Shown here: in pieces, positions 6,835 to 62,500 of the stretch
How positions within the stretch are numbered: position 1 is the first letter of the stretch
How the letters are laid out: the number at the start of each line of letters is the position of its first letter
Source of the DNA: Micromonosporaceae bacterium
Lineage (GTDB): Bacteria; Actinomycetota; Actinomycetes; Mycobacteriales; Micromonosporaceae
Assembly: GCA_009377645.1 (NCBI GenBank)
Contig: WHTQ01000006.1
Coordinates: forward strand, 1 to 64,000
Reading direction: 5' to 3'
Length of the DNA: 64,000 nucleotides
Notes under the pieces: model-generated
What the model saw: only the letters and a program-made list of their open reading frames with translations
The model's database searches: none
What the model was told of the DNA's origin: nothing
Made by a program: the position numbers and the translations under genes

Positions 6835-7425
6835 TCAGGGGCAGTCGTGGTCGGTGATCCAGCCGTGCTGGTAGCGATCGCGGAGCGCTTCGACGAACCC
6901 GGTGATCCGGCGTTCGTCGTACCTGTCGAGCACGTCGATGCGTCCCCAGGCGGTCAGCGCGATGCCGTGCTCGAGCGGCGGGTACGGCGCGAGCAGCACG
7001 TCGGCGCCGTAGCGTCTGGCCAGCCGTGCCAGCTGCGCGACCTCGCGATCGCCGGTGGCCGGGGCGTACTGGATGACAACGTGGCCGTGCTCCATGGCGT
7101 GTACGGTCAGTCCCTCGGCGACCGGCTGGTCGTAGACCCCGGTGGCCACCGTGAACGCGAAGTGCGGTCCAGAGGTCGGGGGCAGTGAGCTGTACTCTAC
7201 CGATTCGGCCTGCGCTGGCGAGACATGGGGACTGTCCATGATGTCGACGGGCTGGCCGGGCAGGCAGGGCGCCTCGCGGGCCGCTTCGGCGGTGGAGCCG
7301 GCCACATTGCCGAGCAGGAACTGGTACGGCCCGGCCAGCAGCGCGACCAGCACGCCGAGGACCACCACAGTGAGCCCGGCCCGCCAGGCCAGGCGCCGGG
7401 GGGTGCCCACCGGTGGCGTACTCAT
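6835..7425 (-). CDS. DUF3105 membrane-anchored protein
   Basis: The 196-residue protein has one N-terminal membrane segment (about residues 13-32) and an extracytoplasmic domain. That domain carries DUF3105 features: YSSLPPTSGPH, then HAMEHGHVVIQY, with conserved His residues that look like ligands. The biochemical role of the family is not established. Its ATG overlaps the stop of the M50 peptidase gene (ATGA), so it is translated with the candidate RiPP operon, as its last gene. DUF3105 proteins are common in actinomycetes outside such loci, so membership in the pathway is inferred only from coupling. Confidence 0.8.
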   Translation of the reverse strand: MSTPPVGTPRRLAWRAGLTVVVLGVLVALLAGPYQFLLGNVAGSTAEAAREAPCLPGQPVDIMDSPHVSPAQAESVEYSSLPPTSGPHFAFTVATGVYDQPVAEGLTVHAMEHGHVVIQYAPATGDREVAQLARLARRYGADVLLAPYPPLEHGIALTAWGRIDVLDRYDERRITGFVEALRDRYQHGWITDHDCP

Positions 7426-8660
7426 CGGAGGGTTCCCGCCCGGCGCAGCCTGCGCTCCCGCCAGGCCAGCAGCGGGACCACCGCGTACTGGCCGATCACG
7501 ATAGTCACCACCGCGGCCGACTCCCAGAACGCGACTGAGCCCAGTGCGGGATGAGTGAGATTGTGGCCGACCCACCAGGTCATCGAGGCGATGAACGGGA
7601 TGGCGTAGGTGACTGCGATCCAACCCATCGCGACCAGCCCGGCGAGGAACAGCAGCCCGAACCAGCGGGCCACCCGCCGGTCGTGGTCGCCGATCGCGGC
7701 CAGCTCGGTGGTCTCGGTGGCGGTGAGCCCGCGCAGCCGGTCCTTGGTGGTCAGCCAGGTGGCCCGGTAGAGATCGTGGCAACGTAGCGCGTTGGCCAGC
7801 ACCGCGTACCCGTCGCTGCGCAGGAACAGCGCCGCCCATTGCCAGATGATGCCGAGCAGCTGGACCAGCACGACCGCGGCCAGCAGCCGGTCCACCCACC
7901 CGGGGAGCACGATCAGGTCGGTGCGGTGGGCCAGCCGCAGGCCCAGCGCCGCCGCGAGGACGGCGACGTCGAAAGCCATTCCGGCCAGGAACGCGCCGTA
8001 TCGCCGCCGCCGGCCGGTGGCGACGAGCTGAGTAAGGTCGGTCTCGAAGACCAGGAAGATGCCCCGGTAGCTGACTCGGAAGATGGCCGGGACACCGATC
8101 GCGCGCCCGGCCAGCCAGTGCCACGCCTCGTGGCAGGCGGTCAGCAGCAGCCCGATCGGGAACAGCACCAGCACCGAGAGCACCGGGTCGGGTAGCCACC
8201 AGGTGTGCTCGTAGCTGGGCCACAGGTCCGGCCGGGCCGAGAACACCGCGATCACGAAGCCGGTCGCCAACCCGTAGCCGATCCAGGCCACCGGGCCGAA
8301 CAGCCGCCGCGCCGCCGCCGGGCTGACCCCTTCGATCCAACGGATCTCCCTGGTCCGCCCCGACCTCCGCCCCGACCGAACCACCGCCACCTCCTGGGCC
8401 GGGTCGGTGGGTGGGTCCCACAGGCCGGCCGCCGCCAGCCCACTTAGAAAGTCATCCCCGTCGACCTCGGCCCCGGCCGCCTCGCTGGCCCGGGCGGTCG
8501 CCACCGCCAGCGGCTCGCCGGCCTGCAGCGCCTCCACGAGCACCACCCCGGGCCGCGGCACCACCACGTACACGCCGAGGTCCGGCCGTCCCAGCACGTA
8601 CTCGTCGCCGTCGTGGGCGACCACCACCCGCTCCAGCGCCGAGGCCAGGCCGGCATTCAC
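7422..8660 (-). CDS. M50-type membrane zinc metallopeptidase with PqqD-like front
   Basis: The 412-residue protein starts with an approximately 85-residue PqqD/RRE-like segment (DEYVLGRPDLGVYVVVPRPG, then FLSGLAAAGLW) of the kind that binds RiPP leader peptides. Several membrane helices follow. HEAWH at about residues 177-181 is the zinc site. A later SDGYAVLANAL (about residue 282) matches the DGYxxL region of 'putative peptide zinc metalloproteases'. GTG 8660 is chosen because AGGAGG lies 8 bases upstream. A hairpin separates it from the two peptide genes. Likely jobs are leader removal, export or immunity (inference). Confidence 0.8.
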   Translation of the reverse strand: MNAGLASALERVVVAHDGDEYVLGRPDLGVYVVVPRPGVVLVEALQAGEPLAVATARASEAAGAEVDGDDFLSGLAAAGLWDPPTDPAQEVAVVRSGRRSGRTREIRWIEGVSPAAARRLFGPVAWIGYGLATGFVIAVFSARPDLWPSYEHTWWLPDPVLSVLVLFPIGLLLTACHEAWHWLAGRAIGVPAIFRVSYRGIFLVFETDLTQLVATGRRRRYGAFLAGMAFDVAVLAAALGLRLAHRTDLIVLPGWVDRLLAAVVLVQLLGIIWQWAALFLRSDGYAVLANALRCHDLYRATWLTTKDRLRGLTATETTELAAIGDHDRRVARWFGLLFLAGLVAMGWIAVTYAIPFIASMTWWVGHNLTHPALGSVAFWESAAVVTIVIGQYAVVPLLAWRERRLRRAGTLR

Positions 8661-8689
8661 CTCGGTCACCTCCTGTCCGCCTGGGTGGT

Positions 8690-8726
8690 GCGGGTGCCCC
8701 GGCACGGCTCTCACCGGGGCACCCGC
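8690..8726 (-). terminator. Hairpin between the peptide genes and the M50 gene
   Basis: A perfect 13-bp stem (GCGGGTGCCCCGG, 8690-8702, paired with 8714-8726) encloses an 11-base loop. There is no U-run. It lies 25 bases after the first peptide's stop and about 30 bases before the M50 start. Partial terminators or RNA-stabilising hairpins at this place are common in RiPP operons, allowing more precursor than processing-enzyme transcript. That function is inference. Confidence 0.65.
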
Positions 8727-8751
8727 GTTGTCGAGGCTCGCGGTCGAGTCC

Positions 8752-8838
8752 TCAGGAATCACAGCTGATCGTGTTGGCGCTGCAATAGCTGTAGGACGTG
8801 AGTCGGGCGTTCTCGACCTTGCGGATCTCCAGCTTCAC
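8752..8838 (-). CDS. Candidate RiPP precursor peptide 1 (28 aa)
   Basis: This GTG-started ORF encodes a leader MKLEIRKVENARLT followed by a C-terminal part SYSYCSANTISCDS. GGAGGAATTC lies just upstream as a ribosome site. The leader differs from peptide 2 at one residue only (Ala versus Thr at position 11), while the rest has diverged. This is the conserved-leader, variable-core pattern of ribosomal natural product precursors. The core has two Cys (spaced C-x6-C), several Ser/Thr/Tyr and the ending SCDS. It lies 65 bases after peptide 2 and before the M50 gene. It is too short for ordinary gene callers. Confidence 0.8.
   Translation of the reverse strand: MKLEIRKVENARLTSYSYCSANTISCDS
8798..8837. 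repeat. Leader-encoding direct repeat, copy 1
   Basis: This 40-base stretch matches 8935-8974 at 38 of 40 positions and encodes the shared leader of the two peptide genes. Identity stops sharply at the start of the core-coding part. It indicates a recent duplication of the precursor gene with selection for divergence restricted to the core. Confidence 0.9.
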
Positions 8839-8903
8839 GGCGAATTCCTCCCTTCTTTGTCCAGTCGACCTTCTCAACCGGATCGGCTGCCGGTGCCGTT
8901 CCG

Positions 8904-8975
8904 TCAGGATTCGCAGGAGTTACACGTATGCGCCGTGAGTCGGGTGTTCTCGACCTTGCGGATCTCCAACTTCAT
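8904..8975 (-). CDS. Candidate RiPP precursor peptide 2 (23 aa)
   Basis: The ATG overlaps the stop of the ThiF-like gene (ATGA), with GGAGGAGGTG just upstream, so the peptide is translationally coupled to the enzyme. It encodes MKLEIRKVENTRLT followed by AHTCNSCES. The core has two Cys in C-x2-C spacing, and the last four residues SCES match the SCDS of peptide 1. The E1-like neighbour, the PqqD-like metallopeptidase and a twin peptide gene together support a RiPP precursor. The mature modification cannot be read from sequence. Confidence 0.8.
   Translation of the reverse strand: MKLEIRKVENTRLTAHTCNSCES
8935..8974. repeat. Leader-encoding direct repeat, copy 2
   Basis: This is the partner of 8798-8837 (38 of 40 bases identical). 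The two mismatches fall at the Ala/Thr codon and at a silent Leu codon. Confidence 0.9.
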
Positions 8976-10141
8976 CGCGTTTCACCTCCTCCGGAGGCTT
9001 GGTCCGGTGTCCGGTCTGGACGAGCTCCAGGACGGTCGACACCGCACTGTGGGCAGTCGGGTGCGGGTAGCCATGGGTCGTCCTGACGGATGGCGCAGCC
9101 GTTGGCGAAATCGATGATGATCGGCCGCCCGGCGTAGGCCGGCGGTTCGAACCGGGTGAGATAGCGCAGCACCTCGAACGCGCACAGGGCGCCGAGCAGC
9201 CCGGCGACCGGGCCGATCCCGCGGTTGGTGCGCGGCTTGTCCGCGTACAGCGCGAACACCGCGCCCTCGTTCGCCACCGGTCCAGCCTCCGGGGTTGCGT
9301 CCGGCCGGTCACCACCGGTGCGGCCGCAGGCACGGCAGGCACTGACACCGGGCTCGACCGACCACACCAGCCCCTGGGTTACCCACATGCCGCCGCGCAC
9401 GTAGGGCACGCCACGGCTGACGCACCCGGCGTCGACCCAGTCGTCGACCTCAGGAGGGCTGTCGATGCCCGACATCACCACGTCGGGGGCGAGCCGGTCC
9501 AGCAGCTCACCCACCTGCGCTGCGCTGTCCACTCCGGCGTCCAGCGCCTCCACCTTGATCGCCGGGTCGAACCCGCGCACCCACTCGGCGGCCAGCAGGA
9601 CCTTGCGGGCTCCAATGTCGTGATGCCGGTACAGGTACTGCCGGGCGAAGTTGCGGAGCTCCACCGTGTCGCGGTCCAGCAGCGTCAACCTGCCCACCCC
9701 GAGCCCGCACAGGTGCGGGATGGTGTTGGAGTTCAGCCCGCCGGTGCCCAGCACCAGGACGTGGGCGTCCCGCAAGGTCTGCTGGAAGTCCTCCCGGCTA
9801 CGGGCCAGCGACGCGAACGACTCGAAGAATGCCAGGTTCGAGAAGAACCGCTCTCGTTCCGGCTGGTCGAGCCGCCCCAGCCGCTGCTCGTCCTCCAGCA
9901 GCCCGTGCGAGTCGAACAGCTCCACCGCAGCGGCGAGGTCGTCGACCGGCACCGGGACGCCTCGCTCGGCGAAGACATCAGCCAGCTCGGCGACCGTACG
10001 GCCGCCCTCGCGCAGCAGCTCCAGCAGCGTCTCGACCGTCCGATCCGGATCAGCCAGCAGGAAGTAGTCCCGGATGTCGTACACCACCCGCAGCTGTTCA
10101 CCGTCCCGCTGCCATACCACACCCTTCAACCGCGGCGTCAT
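8972..10141 (-). CDS. ThiF/E1-like adenylating enzyme with RRE-like N-terminus
   Basis: The 389-residue protein has an approximately 90-residue winged-helix/RRE-like front (LRVVYDIRDYFLLADPD, TVAELADVFAERGVPVPVDD, SHGLLED). An E1/MoeB/ThiF Rossmann domain follows, with GTGGLNSN at residues 132-139, DRDTVELRNFARQ and DIGARK. Two CxxC pairs at about 269/272 and 363/366 probably hold structural zinc. Enzymes of this family adenylate carboxylates, often a protein C-terminus; MccB and TOMM docking proteins are RiPP relatives. The ATG has GGAGGTG upstream. The final codons overlap peptide 2. Its upstream region holds SARP-type heptads and a -10 box. Confidence 0.85.
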   Translation of the reverse strand: MTPRLKGVVWQRDGEQLRVVYDIRDYFLLADPDRTVETLLELLREGGRTVAELADVFAERGVPVPVDDLAAAVELFDSHGLLEDEQRLGRLDQPERERFFSNLAFFESFASLARSREDFQQTLRDAHVLVLGTGGLNSNTIPHLCGLGVGRLTLLDRDTVELRNFARQYLYRHHDIGARKVLLAAEWVRGFDPAIKVEALDAGVDSAAQVGELLDRLAPDVVMSGIDSPPEVDDWVDAGCVSRGVPYVRGGMWVTQGLVWSVEPGVSACRACGRTGGDRPDATPEAGPVANEGAVFALYADKPRTNRGIGPVAGLLGALCAFEVLRYLTRFEPPAYAGRPIIIDFANGCAIRQDDPWLPAPDCPQCGVDRPGARPDRTPDQASGGGETR

Positions 10142-10303: not shown

Positions 10304-13300
10304 GTGGATCTGGAGCTGCGCGCCTTCGGGTCGTTGGAGATCTCCCGGGACGGCACCGAGGCACGGATCGCCTCTCGGCTGCGGCGGGTGCTGCTCGCGG
10401 TGCTGCTGGCCTCCCGGGGCAAGGTGGTGCCGGCCGCCACTCTCGCCACCAGCATGTGGCCCTCGCACCCACCGGCAGCGGTGGCGAAGAGCCTGCAGAT
10501 CCACATACACCGGCTCCGCCGGGCGCTCGGCGACGCGGGTGCGGTCCAGTACCGTCCGCCGGGCTACGCACTGGCCGCGGCCCCCGAGCAGGTCGACATC
10601 TATCGTTTCGACGAGCTTGCGCGCCGAGGGCACGCGGCGCTGGCTGCCGGTGACGAGCTGGCCGCCATCGACCTGCTGCGGCAGGCGGTCGCGCTCTGCC
10701 GGGGGCCGGCCTTCCAGGGGCTGGACGAGGTTCCGGTGCTGGCCGCGGAGGCTGACCGGCTGGAGGAGCTGCGTCTGGTCGCGATCGAGGAGCGGATGGC
10801 GGCCGAGCTCGCGCTGGGTGAACACGCCGCGGTCGTCGCAGAGCTGAGCCGGTTGGTGGTCGAGCACCCGCTGCGGGAACGTTTTCGTGCCCAGCTCATG
10901 ACCGCCCTGTACCGAGCCGGACGCAAGGCCGACGCGTTGGCCGCCTTCCGCGAGGGCCGGCGGAGGCTAGTCGAGGAGCTCGGAATCGAGCCCAACGCGG
11001 AGTGTCGTGAGCTTGAGCGTGCGATCCTGGCCGATGACCCGGGACTGGACCCGCCGAGCCGCACGGACCGGGTTGCCCGGCGCACCGACTCATCCTGGCC
11101 GGCGCCCAGGCAGCTGCCGCCGGATGTGGCGACCTTCACCGGCCGCACGGCCGAGCTGCGTGAGCTGGACGCGCTGCTGTCCGGTGCGAGGGCCGACGGT
11201 CCGGCGACCGCGGTCGGGATCTCGGCCATCGAGGGAGCGGCCGGGATCGGCAAGACCGCCCTGGCAGTGCACTGGGCACACCGGGTCTCGGGTCGGTTCC
11301 CCGACGGGCAGCTGTATGTGAACCTGCGCGGCTACGCCTCCGGCCCGGCGCTGCGACCGGTGGCGGCGCTGGCAGTCGTGCTGCGCTCGCTGGGGGCGCC
11401 GGCCGAGCACGTGCCGGCCGACCTCGACGAAGCGTCGGCGTGGTACCGGAGCCGGCTGGCGGGCAAACGGGTACTCGTCCTGCTGGACAACGCCGCGACT
11501 GCGGAGCAGGTGCGGCCGCTGCTGCCCGGCGCCGGTGGGTCGCTGGTGGTGGTCACCAGCCGGAACCGGTTGAGCGGCCTGGTGGCGCGGGACGGTGCGC
11601 GTCCGGTACGGCTTGGTCTGCTGCAGCCGGCGGAGTCCTTCTCGTTGCTGTCCCGGCTGGTGGGTGCGGCGCGGGTGGCCGCCGAGCCAGCGGCGGTCGC
11701 CGAGCTGGCCCGCCGGTGCGGGCACCTGCCACTGGCGCTGCGGATCGCCGCCGCCAACCTGATCGCCCACCCGGGTCAGCCGGTCGCCGGCTTCGCCGCG
11801 CAGCTCGGCGCCGGCCGGCTGGCGGCGCTGGCGGTGGCCGGGGACGAGCCGGCGACGGTGTCCGCCGCGTTCGACCTCTCGTACGCCCGGCTGCCCGACT
11901 CGACCCGGCGGATGTTCCGGCAGTTGGGGCTGGTACCAGGCCCGGATGTCACCGCCGAGGCCGCCGCCTCCCTGGCCGGCACCGACCCGGCCGAGGCCAG
12001 GGTGGCGCTGGAGAGGCTGGCCGACGCGCACCTCGTGGAGGAACATGCCGCGGGCCGGTACGTGATGCACGACCTGCTGCGCAGCTACGCGGCCGAGCTC
12101 GCCGGTCAAGACTCCGCTACGCGCCCGGATGCCGAGGACCACGCGGCCGCGCTCACCCGCCTCTACCGCTGGTACGTCGCCGGTACGGACGCTGCGGCGC
12201 GGATGGTGATGCCTCACATGCCCCGGCTCGCGGACCCGGTCGACGTCCAAGGCGTGGCCACTCCCCGGTTCGCCAGCCAGCCCGAGGCACTTGCCTGGCT
12301 CGACGCGGAATGCGGCAACCTGGTAACCGCCGTCGTGGCGGCCGCTGGAGCGCAGCGACGGCTTGCGGCCACGCTGTGTGCGGCGCTTCGCGGCCACCTG
12401 GTCCTCCGCCACCAGGTCGTCGACCTCAGCACGGTCGGGACGGCGGTGCTAGCCGCCGCGGACCGGCATGGTGACCTGCGGGCACAGGCGGCGGCGCGGC
12501 TGGCGCTCGGTTCGGCCGCGTTCGCCCAGCGGCGGCTGCCACAGGCGATCTCGGAGCACCTCGCCGCGCTGACGCAGGCGCGGCGGGCTGGCTGGGAGCC
12601 CGGTACAGCCAGCGCTCTCAGCAACCTGGGCACTGTGCATTGGGAGCTCGGGGACCTGGACCAGGCCGCAGATCGCTTCGCCGAGGCCCTCGTGATCGAG
12701 CGGCGTTCCAGCCGCCGGCCAGCACAGGCTCGGCTGCTGACCTTGGCCGGAGTCATCCACGCCGAGCGCGGCCGACTTCGTCGCGCCGCTGACCACTTCC
12801 GTAGCGCCCTGCTCATCAACGCCGAGCTCGGGCACGACCTCGGCCTGGCGATCGACCACGACAGCCTGGGCCACGTGCTGCATGCGCTCGGCCAGCTCGA
12901 CGACGCCGGCGACCACCTCGAGCAGGCGCTGCGGCTCTTCCGCGCGGCCGGCTACAAGTCCGGGGAGGCAAGCACCCTGGACAACCTCGCTGCGGTGCAT
13001 CGCGACGCCGGTCGGCTCGGGGTCGCCGTCAGCTGCGCCAGCTCGGCCGCCGCGATCGCGCGGGAGATCCGGGCGGAACGGGTGGAGGCGGAGGCGAGCA
13101 ACACGCTGGCGACGATCTTTGAACGGCTCGGACGGCACCTACCGGCCATCGAGCACCACCACCATGCGCTTCGGCTGGCCGTGGCGGCCGGCAGCAGGTC
13201 CACGCAGATCGGCGCGAAGGTCGGGCTCGCCATCGCACTGGTCGGCGACGGCCGTTTCGAGCTGGCGGTGAGCTATGCCGAGCCTGCCCGGGCGATGGCG

Positions 13301-13492
13301 GCGACCGCGGGCTACCTCGTCCTGGAGGCGGATGCGCTCGCCGCGCAGGCACGAGCGCGGCTCGCCCTGGGCGAGCCGGCACCCGCTGCCGAGCTGGCGC
13401 GGCAGGCGATCGAGCGACACCGCCGCAGCGGCCACCGGCTCGGCGAGGCCGAGAGTCGCCGCATCCTCGCCGCTGCTGGCGCGCAGGAGTGA
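10304..13492 (+). CDS. AfsR-like SARP-NB-ARC-TPR transcriptional activator
   Basis: The 1062-residue protein has, in order, an OmpR-type winged helix (about residues 1-90, LRAFGSLEISRDG), a BTAD domain (about 95-245), an NB-ARC/STAND ATPase and TPR repeats from about residue 720 to the end. The ATPase has Walker A GAAGIGKTAL near 312 and the typical FPDGQLYVNLRG. Such proteins activate antibiotic and RiPP clusters by binding phased heptads near the -35 region. GTG 10304 follows GGGAGGT and starts exactly at the DNA-binding domain. It is divergent from the ThiF-like operon and is its likely pathway-specific activator. Confidence 0.9.
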   Translation: MDLELRAFGSLEISRDGTEARIASRLRRVLLAVLLASRGKVVPAATLATSMWPSHPPAAVAKSLQIHIHRLRRALGDAGAVQYRPPGYALAAAPEQVDIYRFDELARRGHAALAAGDELAAIDLLRQAVALCRGPAFQGLDEVPVLAAEADRLEELRLVAIEERMAAELALGEHAAVVAELSRLVVEHPLRERFRAQLMTALYRAGRKADALAAFREGRRRLVEELGIEPNAECRELERAILADDPGLDPPSRTDRVARRTDSSWPAPRQLPPDVATFTGRTAELRELDALLSGARADGPATAVGISAIEGAAGIGKTALAVHWAHRVSGRFPDGQLYVNLRGYASGPALRPVAALAVVLRSLGAPAEHVPADLDEASAWYRSRLAGKRVLVLLDNAATAEQVRPLLPGAGGSLVVVTSRNRLSGLVARDGARPVRLGLLQPAESFSLLSRLVGAARVAAEPAAVAELARRCGHLPLALRIAAANLIAHPGQPVAGFAAQLGAGRLAALAVAGDEPATVSAAFDLSYARLPDSTRRMFRQLGLVPGPDVTAEAAASLAGTDPAEARVALERLADAHLVEEHAAGRYVMHDLLRSYAAELAGQDSATRPDAEDHAAALTRLYRWYVAGTDAAARMVMPHMPRLADPVDVQGVATPRFASQPEALAWLDAECGNLVTAVVAAAGAQRRLAATLCAALRGHLVLRHQVVDLSTVGTAVLAAADRHGDLRAQAAARLALGSAAFAQRRLPQAISEHLAALTQARRAGWEPGTASALSNLGTVHWELGDLDQAADRFAEALVIERRSSRRPAQARLLTLAGVIHAERGRLRRAADHFRSALLINAELGHDLGLAIDHDSLGHVLHALGQLDDAGDHLEQALRLFRAAGYKSGEASTLDNLAAVHRDAGRLGVAVSCASSAAAIAREIRAERVEAEASNTLATIFERLGRHLPAIEHHHHALRLAVAAGSRSTQIGAKVGLAIALVGDGRFELAVSYAEPARAMAATAGYLVLEADALAAQARARLALGEPAPAAELARQAIERHRRSGHRLGEAESRRILAAAGAQE

Positions 13493-13600: not shown

Positions 13601-16600
13601 ATGCACCCTGCCGACGCCGGCTACCTGCGCACGCCCACCATCTGCGGCGACAATGTGATCTTCGTCTGCGACGACGACCTGTGGCTGGTCTCGGCCGCCG
13701 GCGGCCGGGCGTACCGGCTGACCGCCGGGGTGGCCGAGGCGAGCGGCCCCCGACTGTCCCCGGACGGGCGGCTGCTCGCCTTCGTCGGTCAGGAGGAGGG
13801 TCCCCCGGACGTGTACGTCATGCCGGCCGTCGGGGGCGACACCCGCCGGCTGACCTACCAGGGCGGGATGATGGTGGTGGCCGGCTTCGACCCGGCCGAC
13901 GGAGCGATCCTCTACGCGACCGACGCCGACCGCCCGTTCTTCCGGGACCGGTGGCTGCACCGGGTCAGCCCGGACGGTGGCCTGCCGGAGCTGCTGCCCT
14001 ACGGCCCGGCGGCGGCGATCGGGCACGGCCCGGGCGGCGGGGTGGTGCTGGGCCGGTCGGTCGACGACCCGGCCCGCTGGAAGCGGTACCGGGGTGGCCG
14101 GGTCGGTGACCTGTGGGTGGACCCGGACGGGTCGGGGCAGTTCGGCCGGCTGATCCGGCTGGACGGCAACTTCGCCAGCCCCTGCTGGGTGGGGGAGCGG
14201 ATCTACTTCCTGTCCGACCACGAGGGGGTCGGCAACGTCTACTCTTGCACCCCGCAGGGGGAGGACCTGCGCCGGCACACCGACCACGAGGACTACTACG
14301 CGCGGCATCTCAGCGCCGACCAGCACCGGCTGGTCTACCAGGCCGGGGCACGGCTGTGGCTGCTGGAGCCGGGCGGCAGCGGCCCGCGCCCGGTGGCGGT
14401 CGAGCTGGCCAGCTCGCGCACCCAGCGCAGCCGGCGGTTCGTCCCGGCCGCCGAGCATCTGGACACCGTCGACCTGTCACCGGACGGGGCCGAGCTGGCG
14501 GTCACCACCCGCGGCAAGGCGTACGGGTTCGGCAGCTGGGCCGGGCCGGTGCGCCGGTACGGGGAGCCGGACGGGGTGCGGTACCGGCTGCTGCGCCATC
14601 TCCACGATGGCAAGCAGATGATCGCGGTCGCCAGCGACGAGTCGGACCGGGAAGCACTGGTGGTGTTCGGGCCGGACGGCACCGCCCAGCGGCTGCCGGA
14701 CCTGGACGTCGGCCGGGTGGTGGAGCTGGCCGCCGCCCCGACCGCGGCCGGGCTGGCGCTGACCAACCACCGCTGCGAGCTGCTGCTGGTGGACCTGACG
14801 GCGGCGACCCCGCAGCTGACCACGGTGGACACCAACCAGTACGGGGAGCTGGCGGACCTGGCCTGGTCTCCGGACGGGCGCTGGCTCGCGTACACCTGCC
14901 CGACCAGCCCGCGCACCTCGGCGATCAGGCTGGCCCGGGTGGAGACCGGCCAGACCTGGCCGGTGACCCGGCCGGTGCTGCGCGACAGCCGGCCGGCGTT
15001 CGACCCGGACGGGCGTTACCTCTACTTCATCGGCCAGCGGGCGCTCGACCCGGTCTACGACGAGGTCCAGTTCGACCTCGGCTTCCCGCTGGGCAGCCGG
15101 CCGTACGCGGTCACGCTCCGGGCGGACACCCCGGCGCCGTTCCTCCCGCAGGTGGAGCCGCTGTCCCGCGAGGAGGAGGACGGGGGCACCGCCGGTACCC
15201 GGGAGCGGGCGGACCGGACACCGGTGCAGGTCGAGATCGACCTGGTCGGGATCGAGCGGCGGGTGACCGCGCTGCCGGTGCCGGACGGCCGGTACCGGCG
15301 GGTGGCCGGCACCAGCCGGAAGGTGCTGTTCACCTCCCGCCCGGTGGTCGGGGCGAGCAGCCGGGACCTGCTGGCCGGCCCGGCGGCCGACCTGGTGCTG
15401 GAGATGTACGACCTGAAGACCGGCAAGCAGGAGAAGGTCACCGGCGGGCTGACCGACTTCCGGCTCGGCGCCGACCACCGGACGCTGCTGCTCCGGGCCG
15501 GCAACCGGCTGCGGGTGGCGCGGGCCGGCGTGACCCTGGAGGAGGGTGACCGGGCCTCCGACGAGCCGGGCCGGACGAGTGGCTGGGTGGACCTGGACCG
15601 GGTGAAGGTCTCCGTGCGCCCGGACGCCGAATGGCGGCAGATGTTCCGGGAGGCGTGGCGGCTGCAGCGGGAGAGCTTCTGGTCCGCGGACATGTCCGGT
15701 GTGGACTGGGACGAGGTCTACGGTCGGTACCTGCCGCTGGTCGACCGGGTCAGCACCCGGTCGGAGTTCTCCGACCTGCTGTGGGAGCTGCAGGGGGAGC
15801 TGGGCACCTCGCACGCGTACGAGTGGGGCGGCGCCTACCGGAACCGTCCGGACTACCGGCAGGGTTACCTGGGGGTGGACTGGACTGTGGACCCGAGCAC
15901 CGGTGCCTACCGGATCGGCCAGGTGCTGGAGGGCGACCTGTGGTCGGCGGACGACACGTCGGCGTTCAACCGGTCCGGAGTGGACGTGGCGGCCGGCGAC
16001 CAGGTGCTGGCGATCGGTGGAACCCCGGTCAGCCCGACCGTCACCCCGCCCGAGCTGCTGGTGAGCCAGGCCGAGGAGGAGGTCCAGGTGACCGTCCGGC
16101 GGGGAGACGGCGCGCCCCGTACGGTCTCGGTCCGGGCGCTGGCCGACGAGCGGCCGGCCCGGTACCGGGACTGGGTGGAGGCCAACCGGGCGCTGGTGCA
16201 CGATCGGACCGGCGGCCGGGTCGGCTACCTGCACCTGCCGGACATGCAGGCCCGCGGCTTCGCCGAGTTCCACCGCGGGTTCCTGCCGGAGCTGGACCGG
16301 GAGGCGCTGCTGGTGGACGTGCGCTACAACCGGGGCGGGCACGTGTCCGGGCTGCTGCTGCAGAAGCTGGCCCGGCGCCGGCTCGGCTACGTCTTCCCCC
16401 GGTGGGGGGTGCCGGACCCGTATCCGGAGGAGTCTCCGCGCGGGGTGCTGGTGGCGATCACGAACGAGAACGCGGGCTCGGACGGGGACATCATCAGCCA
16501 CGCCTTCAAGCAGCTCGGTCTCGGCCAGCTGGTGGGTAAGCGCACCTGGGGCGGAGTGATCGGGATCTGGCCCCGGCACCGGCTGGCCGACGGCACCACC

Positions 16601-16846
16601 ACCACCCAGCCGGAGTTCTCGTTCGCCTTCGACGATGTCGGCTGGCGGGTGGAGAACTACGGCACCGAGCCGGATCTGGAGGTCGACATCGCGCCGCAGG
16701 ACTACGCCAAGGGGTTGGATCCGCAGCTGGACCAGGCGGTGGCGTGCGCGCTGGCCACGCTGGCGCAGCGGCCGGCGCACACCCCGAACCCGTCCGCCCC
16801 GCCCCGGCTCGGCCGCCCGACCCTCGCCCCCCGGGAGCCGGCCTAG
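13601..16846 (+). CDS. Tricorn-type S41 peptidase
   Basis: The 1081-residue protein has the full tricorn layout: a six-bladed and a seven-bladed beta-propeller in the first two thirds ([27 protein letters not shown]), a helical segment, a PDZ domain (about residues 760-860) and a C-terminal serine protease core. [13 protein letters not shown] carries the nucleophilic Ser and the S1 Asp. [10 protein letters not shown] supplies the likely catalytic His. Tricorn is a cytoplasmic peptidase that degrades oligopeptides from the proteasome. The ATG has GGAGG 7-8 bases upstream. No operon partner is evident; the SARP gene ends about 108 bases before. Confidence 0.92.
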
Positions 16847-59533: not shown

Positions 59534-62500
59534 ATGAGGTTTGAGGTACTTGGTCCAGTGCGAGTCAGTGCGGGATCCAGGGCGGTGACGATTGCGCGGC
59601 GGGAACGGGTCCTGCTGGCGGTCCTGCTGCTGCACGCCAACCGAACTGTCGGGTCGGGGCTGATCATCGATGCGATCTGGGGCGACCGCCCACCGGCGGA
59701 AGCCGCGGGACAGGTCCATTCCAGTGTCTACCGGCTACGGAACCGGCTCTCGGCTGACGGGTTGCCGCGCGGGCTGATCATCACCGATCCGGCCGGCTAT
59801 CAGCTGCAGGTCGATCCGCAGAGCATTGACCTTGTCGAGTTTCGTGAGCTACGGAACCGGGCGCGCACTGCTGCGGTGGGCGAGGACCTCGACGCAGCCG
59901 CGGCCGGCTACCGGGCGGCCCTCGAGCTGTGGCGCGGTCCGGCGCTGGCGGATGTGGATAGCGACCTGGTACGGCGGGCCGCGGCCGGACTGGACGAGGA
60001 GCGCCTCCAGGCGGTGGAGGAGCGCATCGAGGTGGAACTGTCGCTAGGTCGCGGCAGGGAGCTGGTGGCCGAGCTGACCGACCTGGTGAGCCAGCATCCC
60101 CACCGGGAGAGGCTACATTGCGCGCTGATGCTCGCGCTGTACCGGGCCGCTCGGCAGGCCGACGCGCTGGCCGCGTACCGGAATGCCCGCCAGCTCCTGC
60201 ACGACGAGCTGGGGATCGAGCCCGGGGCGGAGCTGCAAGAAATGCACCACGCGATCTTGAACCGGAGCCCGGAGCCGGAGCAGCCGGCGCAGCCCGTGCC
60301 TGGGCCAGTAGCCGAAGCCGCCCGGCCGACCGTCCCCCGGGAGCTTCCAGCGGATGTCGCCGGGTTCACCGGCCGGGCAGATGCCCTGAATACGCTGGAT
60401 GAGCTGCTTACCGAGGTAGTAGCGGAGTCCCCGGCGCCGGTGGTGATCTCGGCCATCGCCGGCACCGCCGGGGTGGGAAAGACCGCCCTGGCTGTCCACT
60501 GGGCGCACCAGGTTGCGAACCGGTTCCCGGACGGCCAGCTCTACATCAACCTGCGAGGCCACGCGCCCGGCCCACCGCTGGCACCCATCGAGGCGCTTGG
60601 CGCGCTGCTACGGGCGCTTGGCGTATCACCCGACCAGATCCCGCCCGAACAGTCCGAGGCAGCGGCGCTCTACCGGACCCACCTGGCCGATCGTCAAGCA
60701 CTCGTAGTCCTCGACAACGCCCGTTCAGCCGACCAGGTGCGCCCGCTACTACCAGGATCGCCCGGAATCCTCGCCCTGGTCACAAGCCGCAACCGGCTAG
60801 CTGGGCTGATTGCCCGCGATGGCGCGCGCCGGATCACTCTGGATGTCCTCACCCCGCTGGAGGCGCGAATGCTGTTGGCGCGCCTGCTCGGCGAGGTACG
60901 CGTCCAAGAGGAGCCAGACGCGGCGGTCCGACTCGCGGAGGCGTGCGCTCGCCTGCCGCTGGCGCTACGCATCGCGGCGGCGAACCTGGCCGATCGTCCG
61001 GGTGCGAGCATAGAGGGATACGTCGATGAGCTGAGGTCCGGAGAGCTGCTGGCCGCCCTGGTAGCTGATGGTGACGAGGAGGGCGCGGTACGCAGTGCGC
61101 TCGAGATTTCCTATCGCGCAGTCCCGGAACCGGCACGAAAGACCTTCCGCCTTCTGGGCCTGGCACCTGGCCCAGACATTAGCGCCGCAGCCGCTGCTGC
61201 TCTGGTCGGGACAGTTGAAGCTCAGGTCGAACCACTGCTCCGGCAGCTTACCAACGCACATCTCCTGGAGGAACACGCGCCCCGACGGTTCGCCTTTCAC
61301 GATCTCCTCCGCGGTTACGCGCGAGAGCTTGCCGAAGCCGAAGATACCCCAGCGGACCAAGCTGAAGCCGTCCACCGGCTGCTCGAATGGTATCTGTACC
61401 ACTCGGACTCCGCGGCCAATGTTCTCGCTCCGGGAGTCCTACGCCTGCCGCTCCCAGACGTGCGCATCCCGCCGGCAGTCGTCACGTTCGACGATCCAGG
61501 CGATGCCACCGAGTGGGTGGATGCGGAGCGCGGGAACCTGATCGCTGCGATCCGCCTCGCCGCAGATCTCGGGCCACGACCCGTCGCCTGGCTGCTGGCT
61601 GACAGCCTTCGCGGATACCTCTGGCACAGCGGCCGTAAGGCGGACTGGCGGATGGTAGCCAACCTATCCCTGGCAGCCGCAGAGCACGAATGCGACCTTC
61701 CAGCTCAGGCCGCGATCCGGATGAGCCTCGGTGATCTCTACGTGTCGCTTGGTGAGTACCAGCATGCTATCGAACAGCTGGGTACGGCGCTATCGTTCGC
61801 CCGGCGATCGGCGTGGCCGGAAGCCGAGTCCACGACGATCGGCAAGCTCGGGATTGCGTACTGGCATCTGGGCTTCCTCGATCGTGCCGCCGAGATGCTC
61901 TCGCAAAGCCTGGCGTTGTCCCGGAAGACTGGTCGTCTACTCGAGCAGGCGATTACGCTGGGGAATCTCGGGAATGTTCTGCGTGAGCTGGGGCGGTTGC
62001 AGGCGGCCGCCGAGCAGTACCGTCAGTCTGTGGAGATCCATCGCGAACACGGTAGCCGGGGTGAGATGATTGCAATGAACAACCTGGGAGTTGCCAGTCA
62101 CGAACTCGGCCAGCTTGAGCGTGCTGTTTGGTTCGGAACCCAGGCGCTGCAGATGTCCCGGGAGCACGGTTCACGTTATGATGAGGCCTGTGCACTCGAT
62201 AGCCTCGCCGCAGTTCGTCGTGACATTGGTCATCGCGCGCAAGCGCTGGAGCTGGCCCAGTTGGCAGTCGACTTGGCGAGGAGGATCGGCGATCGCCGAA
62301 CCGAAGCCGACGCTCTGAACACGCTCGGCAGCATTCAGACGAGGCTGGGGCAGATTGATCATGCCATTCGCTCTCATGAGCAGGCTTCTAACGTGGCACA
62401 GAGGATCGGCACTCGGGTCGCGACGGTGGTCGCCGCGATCGGGGTTGCCGACGCGCACAGCCGCCTCGGGTCCCATGACGAAGCTCACCGCCACGCTCGA

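Follow-up and report, generated by a model that had tools for sequence, protein, structure and literature searches.

A 64,000-nucleotide stretch of the 4.97-Mb draft genome of a Micromonosporaceae bacterium (GenBank assembly GCA_009377645.1, 95% complete; contig WHTQ01000006.1, positions 1 to 64,000; hereafter the window) carries, on the minus strand at 6835-10141, an operon that very probably encodes a compact pathway for a ribosomally synthesised and post-translationally modified peptide (RiPP). The pathway would comprise two very short precursor peptides, an E1-like enzyme of the ThiF family with an N-terminal RiPP recognition element (RRE), a site-2-type (M50) protease with an RRE of its own, a DUF3105 protein and a divergently transcribed BTAD regulator. 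The locus is a RiPP system of the already recognised RRE-ThiF kind, with a combination of parts for which the literature searched gave no description. An earlier note, made from the sequence alone, had described a minus-strand operon of five parts and read it as a RiPP system. Open reading frames (ORFs) and coordinates bear out the operon in the order RRE-ThiF, peptide 1, peptide 2, RRE-M50 protease and DUF3105 protein, and the RiPP reading is supported by the conservation of the peptide ORFs and by the RRE-like N-termini of both enzymes. Peptide 1 is coupled to the ThiF gene by an ATGA stop/start overlap, as the note had claimed, and a second ATGA joins the M50 stop to the DUF3105 start. The features are the following.

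8972..10141, minus strand: RRE-ThiF/E1-like adenylating enzyme, 389 aa (Pfam ThiF, E 4e-42; family profile; invariant residues)
8904..8975, minus strand: precursor peptide 1, MKLEIRKVENTRLT-AHTCNSCES, the hyphen marking the proposed leader/core border (leader motif conserved at ThiF/M50 loci)
8752..8838, minus strand: precursor peptide 2, GTG start, MKLEIRKVENARLT-SYSYCSANTISCDS (leader near-identical to that of peptide 1)
7422..8669, minus strand: RRE-fused intramembrane site-2-type (M50) protease, 415 aa (alternative start at 8660; HEAWH at residues 180-184)
6835..7425, minus strand: DUF3105 protein (Pfam DUF3105, E 8e-28; one N-terminal membrane helix and a weakly thioredoxin-like domain)
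10304..13492, plus strand: divergent BTAD (SARP-type)-NB-ARC-TPR regulator (Pfam BTAD, E 2e-43, NB-ARC and TPR; start approximate)

The precursor peptides and their conservation

The two peptides, of 23 and 28 residues as first noted, run from an ATG at 8975 to 8904 and from a GTG at 8838 to 8752, and share the leader MKLEIRKVEN(T/A)RLT, the first 14 codons differing at 3 of 42 bases. Both are preceded by purine-rich, ribosome-binding-like stretches (GGAGGAGGTG and GGGAGGA, respectively). A degenerate leader pattern with up to two mismatches matched just these two sites in the whole assembly. Neither Pfam nor NCBIfam gave a match to the peptides, and a literature search on the leader strings returned nothing relevant (the hits being unrelated by title).

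The earlier note had staked its reading on the presence of the peptide ORFs beside homologous ThiF and M50 genes, and this was found in two sets of loci. The first set, drawn from the best matches, comprised 43 stretches that have ThiF as well as M50. At 36 of these loci a same-strand motif ORF lies within 700 bases of the genes (38 ORFs in 167 kb), against one opposite-strand match inside the loci and none in 490 kb of flanking DNA searched on both strands. The second set consisted of 80 of the listed match places, 59 with ThiF and 21 with M50 but no ThiF. A looser pattern found a motif ORF at 52 of the 59 (46/53 after removal of six first-set duplicates), as against 2 matches in the 413 kb flanking the ThiF+M50 stretches; the M50-only loci, where the search area was smaller, yielded a motif ORF in 1/21. 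The 53 ORFs of this second peptide count still include a spurious one at L227. A still looser pattern later recovered peptides at L225 and L268, two loci first scored as peptide-free. L225, which has ThiF and M50 and no DUF3105, carries three precursor-like ORFs with the tails TTGVCQDCNYA, TTQGCPTHGSG and TTQACPANNPGCGAG.

The leader consensus of about 14 residues is [VI]RKVE..(R/K/E).T. When the pattern left the Thr position free, this residue still closed the motif in 54 of the 70 distinct matches; judged by eye, 14 of the remaining 16 are misanchored, with the Thr present, and two look like chance ORFs. The counts exclude a broken copy (L045), the six duplicates and the loci without a recognised peptide (7/43 and 7/59); those of cores and cysteines also leave out the spurious L227 ORF and a longer second peptide at L036 with one core Cys. 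L059, the contig of which begins at the peptide so that its ThiF is not seen, was counted in the core analyses. The broken copy is a second ThiF-M50 pair in the window's own genome (G000:C152, about 60.9-62.5 kb), fragmented over several frames; its ThiF fragment is 56% identical, and a peptide ORF was not recognised there. A scan of the genome contigs with ThiF as a single protein gave no lead.

The RRE-ThiF enzyme and the RRE-M50 protease

The closest solved relatives of a 10-member ThiF profile are MccB (E 2e-47), MoeB (2e-42) and PaaA (2e-41). The match to PaaA (5ff5) spans profile positions 2-200 with the RRE included, which supports the RRE-like N-terminus previously proposed, while the window ThiF on its own matches MoeB first (6e-20), then MccB (2e-16) and PaaA (2e-12), the last from residue 30 onwards. 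Residues G132, G134, G135, D156, N164, R167, Q168, K180, D227 and a CxxC...CxxC pattern are invariant in 10/10 rows of the alignment. EnfB needs Arg167, Lys180 and Asp225, according to the available part of PMC12250964; judging by spacing, we infer that these correspond to the like-placed residues of the window ThiF.

The M50 protein of the window alone gave no Pfam match. Across its family of 17 members, at an E limit of 10, PqqD was found in 7/17 (best 4e-5) and Peptidase_M50 in 6/17 (best 0.005), and the family profile matches the RRE of TbiB1 at E 5e-4. H180, E181, H184 and D286 are invariant in 17/17, in agreement with the claimed HEAWH M50-type membrane protein. In the AlphaFold model (predicted local distance difference test score, pLDDT, 86), residues 4-86 superpose on the TfuB1 RRE (Z 8.2, root-mean-square deviation (rmsd) 2.7 over 80) and residues 4-87 on the lasso RRE TbiB1 (Z 7.6), while residues 112-395 match the intramembrane protease SpoIVFB (Z 8.1, rmsd 3.4 over 132); the model also matches a site-2 protease (Z 6.5, rmsd 5.4 over 144), and for this structural aligner Z values below about 13 may be commonplace among helical proteins. 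Searching NCBIfam with the protease family gave just weak lasso PqqD matches with no daptide-named family among them, a result uninformative as a test. By family profile and model the protease is predicted to be an RRE fused to a site-2 protease, which upholds the PqqD-like N-terminus put forward from the sequence.

Predicted cores and proposed pathway

In daptides, the leader ELExMEAP is followed by cleavage after the motif and an RRE-site-2 protease operates (PMC10036551 and PMC12338566, as far as their available text goes). By analogy, the core was taken to start after the motif Thr. The 58 distinct predicted cores extend from GLQV and GFAV up to VAIISEPGCRNDVCG, most of them having 4-15 residues. 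The last residue is Gly in 17, Ser in 14, Ala in 8, Thr in 7, Val in 5, Cys in 3, His in 2, and Leu and Pro in one each; tails in the clade of the window are mostly (D/E)S (CES, CDS, SDS, PDS, TDS). As Asp and Glu are absent from 21/58, the carboxylate common to all cores is the C-terminal one, and this is most likely the group that the E1-like enzyme adenylates. The core GFAV also has no side-chain nucleophile, and with cores devoid of side chains that are acidic or nucleophilic the E1-like reaction can be tested directly.

From the computed gene set, conservation, fold matches and active-site residues, we propose how leader binding, site of adenylation, nucleophile, cleavage site, export, role of the DUF3105 protein, regulation and biological role might fit together. 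The leader of about 14 residues would be bound by the RREs of both enzymes. With ATP, the E1-like enzyme would convert a carboxylate of the core, most likely that of the C-terminus, to the acyl-AMP, which would be passed to a nucleophile. The RRE-site-2 protease would then cleave the precursors at the invariant Thr or beside it, delivering at the membrane products of 9 and 14 residues (AHTCNSCES and SYSYCSANTISCDS). Outside the membrane, the two core cysteines are probably the target of the DUF3105 protein, and the BTAD-NB-ARC-TPR protein probably governs the operon.

The DUF3105 protein and the core cysteines

The assignment to DUF3105 agrees with the earlier annotation. Among 83 non-redundant loci, DUF3105 is present at 19/20 with a two-Cys core vs 3/63 others; conversely, two-Cys cores occur at 19/22 loci with DUF3105 vs 1/61 without it. 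In the first set the figures were 8/8 and 0/29, and a strict rule equating DUF3105 with a two-Cys core, drawn from that set, was broken by the second (11/14 vs 1/32). Several observations weaken the link: L239, L241, L244 and L246 are exceptions, L225 has no DUF3105 and two of its three peptides have two Cys, and a tree of the M50 proteins (made by a quick method, with long-branch warnings) shows just two changes of the DUF3105 state, the two-Cys state changing five times. As DUF3105 changes only twice, the link is a correlation with few independent events; a test on independent pairs had two pairs and a median p of 0.5. The protease and the DUF3105 protein are tied more firmly by L059:221-2074, from a metagenome-assembled genome (MAG) of the Geodermatophilaceae, in which both form a single protein of 617 residues.

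No convincing match to the DUF3105 protein was found by sequence in the PDB, and a literature search on DUF3105 found nothing. A model built from a 5-row alignment (pLDDT 76; block means of 89-97 across residues 91-180) matches Trx2 (7d6l) best, with Z 8.0 and rmsd 3.6 over 94 residues, a Z (8 or less) that can reflect a common arrangement. Nearly all structural match rows shown are thioredoxins, the best Foldseek E for this 5-row model being 2.6e-3. The protein lacks a CxxC active site and has instead the outlying invariant cysteines C53 and C194 and an invariant HxxEH motif. Tentatively, we take it for a thiol or metal protein that is anchored in the membrane, faces outwards and acts on the two-Cys peptide after its release; this gives a first functional lead for DUF3105.

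Alternative explanations

The nucleophile may be the motif-closing Thr itself. In such a macrolactone, the E1-like enzyme would link the C-terminal carboxylate to the Thr hydroxyl and so close a ring that, with the Thr counted, mostly has 5-16 residues, as in lactone and thiolactone signals; the protease would cut before the ring. The Thr is kept at the leader/core border, 4-15 residues follow it in 52/54 peptides which have it at the expected place, GFAV offers no side-chain nucleophile of its own, and GrcB forms a thiolactone by the same chemistry (PMC12250964, available part). The Thr may, however, be just the last residue of a recognition or cleavage motif (daptides have Pro there), and a threefold variation in ring size would be required; we regard the macrolactone as possible, if rather unlikely. 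Somewhat more doubtful is a variant confined to the clade of the window, in which a core Cys would capture the acyl-AMP as a thiolactone and DUF3105 would guard or oxidise thiols. The same GrcB precedent (PMC12250964, available part) and the two-Cys cores at 19/22 DUF3105 loci fit it, but most of the 83 loci have no two-Cys cores and the ThiF rows from such loci nevertheless keep the same active-site residues, therefore capture by Cys is not the general reaction.

An explanation that does without the E1-like chemistry would have the M50 protease process the peptides into pheromones with little or no modification, the ThiF homologue having another role. The very short products, processing by a site-2 protease and the adjacent TPR regulator would all suit a pheromone; this is, however, improbable, given that ThiF has an RRE-like domain and accompanies a peptide gene at 36/43 and 52/59 loci, and that 20/21 M50-only loci have no peptide. 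Hardly any credence is left for the peptide ORFs being chance or non-coding: they are tiny and unlisted in the (incomplete) gene tables of two homologous Streptomyces plasmid loci, but leader conservation across genera beside ThiF/M50 genes (36/43 and 46/53 loci, compared to the flanks), with the Thr at the motif end throughout, rules this out.

The RiPP pathway with an E1-like modification has, for its part, several points to its disadvantage. The single ThiF sequence of the window ranks MoeB, a non-RiPP enzyme, top among solved structures, and the PDB matches of the M50 model are moderate, the best by Foldseek being TbiB1 chains with probability 1.00 and E 0.12 and up. The counting patterns found no peptide at 7/43 and 7/59 ThiF+M50 loci, and at some loci an additional gene lies between ThiF and M50. 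A transporter family did not turn up in the Pfam scans, which took in 32 window proteins, both peptides included, over about 0.3-30 kb (part of the ORFs only), several having no family and possibly being wrong frames. The core border, finally, was set by the daptide analogy, and another cut site would weaken the argument from Asp/Glu-free cores, since a leader Lys or Glu could participate.

Comparison with known RiPP systems

The YcaO, Lan, radical-SAM and ATP-grasp families, which the earlier note had reported missing, are indeed not found among the scanned window proteins (some of them probably wrong-frame ORFs), and neither are aminotransferase, alcohol dehydrogenase, decarboxylase or oxygenase families. 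With YcaO absent from these proteins, a role of ThiF as a YcaO partner was set aside.

Adenylation of a carboxylate is common to all ThiF-like RiPP enzymes, and what varies between them is the nucleophile, according to the available part of PMC12150305, in which 27,400 RRE-ThiF fusions were mined and several unannotated clusters are said to possibly encode new chemistry. The locus resembles the systems of MccB (microcin C), PaaA (pantocin A), GrcB, EnfB (enterofaecin) and IndF in having an RRE-fused E1-like enzyme, a neighbouring short precursor and the adenylation residues, and the (V/I)RKA motif of the enterofaecin leader EnfA resembles the (V/I)RKVE of the present peptides. Unlike microcin C and the GRC RiPPs, both window peptides end in Ser, not in Asn or Cys, respectively, and no radical SAM family occurs among the scanned proteins; unlike pantocin A, neither peptide has Glu-Glu and no PaaB-type oxygenase family was found among those proteins; unlike enterofaecin and Ind, neither has a Trp, hence no WWIVI or NWYFI tail. 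The protease of Ind is an M16 enzyme, that of the window is of the RRE-site-2 type. A transporter in the cluster, which in the available part of PMC12150305 is a search criterion for RRE-ThiF RiPPs, has no counterpart among the scanned window proteins, and the predicted cores of relatives, down to 4 residues, and the DUF3105 and BTAD partners also set the family apart from the RRE-ThiF precedents.

The protease shares its layout, an RRE fused to a site-2 protease, with DapP/MpaP of the daptides, a likeness taken from the description of DapP, and the daptide leader ELExMEAP may be compared with the KVExIEAT-type leader here. Unlike in daptides, the C-terminal Thr is not invariant (7/58 distinct cores; the window peptides end in Ser), the enzyme is E1-like, and no decarboxylase or aminotransferase family is among the scanned window proteins. 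A LanB-type ligase is the hallmark of pearlins; neither it nor a radical SAM enzyme was found among these proteins, which separates the locus from pearlins and epipeptides. It shares with both a membrane M50 protease for a small peptide: TglG (pearlins) and EpeP (epipeptides) mature small peptide products (PMC10885120, available part).

Membership in daptides, microcin C, pantocin, GRC, enterofaecin and Ind was accordingly rejected on C-termini, cores and partner families. The first reading of the locus as matching no named class holds in part. No description of the combination of RRE-ThiF, tiny precursors and RRE-site-2 protease was found in the open-access literature; the kind in which an RRE-ThiF fusion accompanies a precursor and a protease is, however, already recognised in the available parts of PMC12250964 and PMC12150305, and the M50 layout is daptide-like (PMC10036551, available part). 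The present family may already sit, without a name, among the unannotated RRE-ThiF clusters of PMC12150305, as far as its available part tells. The pairing of E1-like chemistry with a daptide-type RRE protease suggests that RiPP modules mix freely.

The BTAD regulator and the surrounding genes

A BTAD gene is present in the fetched stretch of 39/83 loci, where about 4.4 would be expected from the density in nine genomes. The excess at ThiF/M50 loci is large, but it is not a count of independent events, since the loci are related and the nine genomes were all picked with BTAD at the locus; moreover, the density was counted with the Pfam model and the loci with a model built from the window's protein. 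In 30/83 loci BTAD is upstream and divergent, the matched domains being 127-440 bases apart. Its TPR domain and its place beside the operon prompt the guess that the divergent BTAD-NB-ARC-TPR protein, besides probably controlling the operon, is a peptide receptor. It is conceivable, though unlikely, that the loci form a broad actinomycete family of modified peptide signals, with cores of 4-15 residues, a C-terminus closed or capped by the RRE-E1 enzyme (perhaps in a lactone with the Thr at the leader border), release by the RRE-site-2 protease and sensing by the BTAD-NB-ARC-TPR protein. If so, the regulator would be a peptide receptor that turns on specialised metabolism.

On the same strand, the regulator is followed by a Tricorn-type S41 peptidase gene (13601-16846, plus strand), and another BTAD domain lies distant from the operon at 59825-60259 (plus strand) of the window. 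Downstream of the operon are convergent genes, one DNA polymerase III alpha-like and, further out, one of the IMS family.

Host range and related loci

Named hosts of ThiF+M50 loci are Streptomyces, Nonomuraea, Kribbella, Terrabacter, an Actinophytocola MAG and a Geodermatophilaceae MAG, among others. The locus adds a widespread actinomycete RiPP family with precursors so short that they are easily overlooked and, in relatives, predicted products as small as four residues. A similar M50 was found in 18/394 genomes of the class, 78/250 genomes of one family of the class and 83/300 of the window's family, some of them without ThiF; among the searched genomes of the window's genus, G913 has a distant M50 and G884 has none.

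At L122, L123 and L126 a gene of roughly 210-310 residues sits between ThiF and M50, and a motif peptide was not found. RRE-M50 relatives without ThiF at L107-L113 perhaps represent another RiPP-like family. Several of them (e.g. L109) adjoin a protein of roughly 700 residues with a HHWIRAARRRDR-like start, a second neighbour in several is a gene which we take to be flavin-oxidoreductase-like, and a BTAD regulator is present at L108, L109, L111 and L113. Peptides of the same leader type also occur beside an M50 gene without ThiF at L115:7674-7751 (MKKLVVRKLEPIKTSANADCVPAAA) and L116:8117-8203 (MPRMKKLIVRRLESVKTSAATSCSVVVA).

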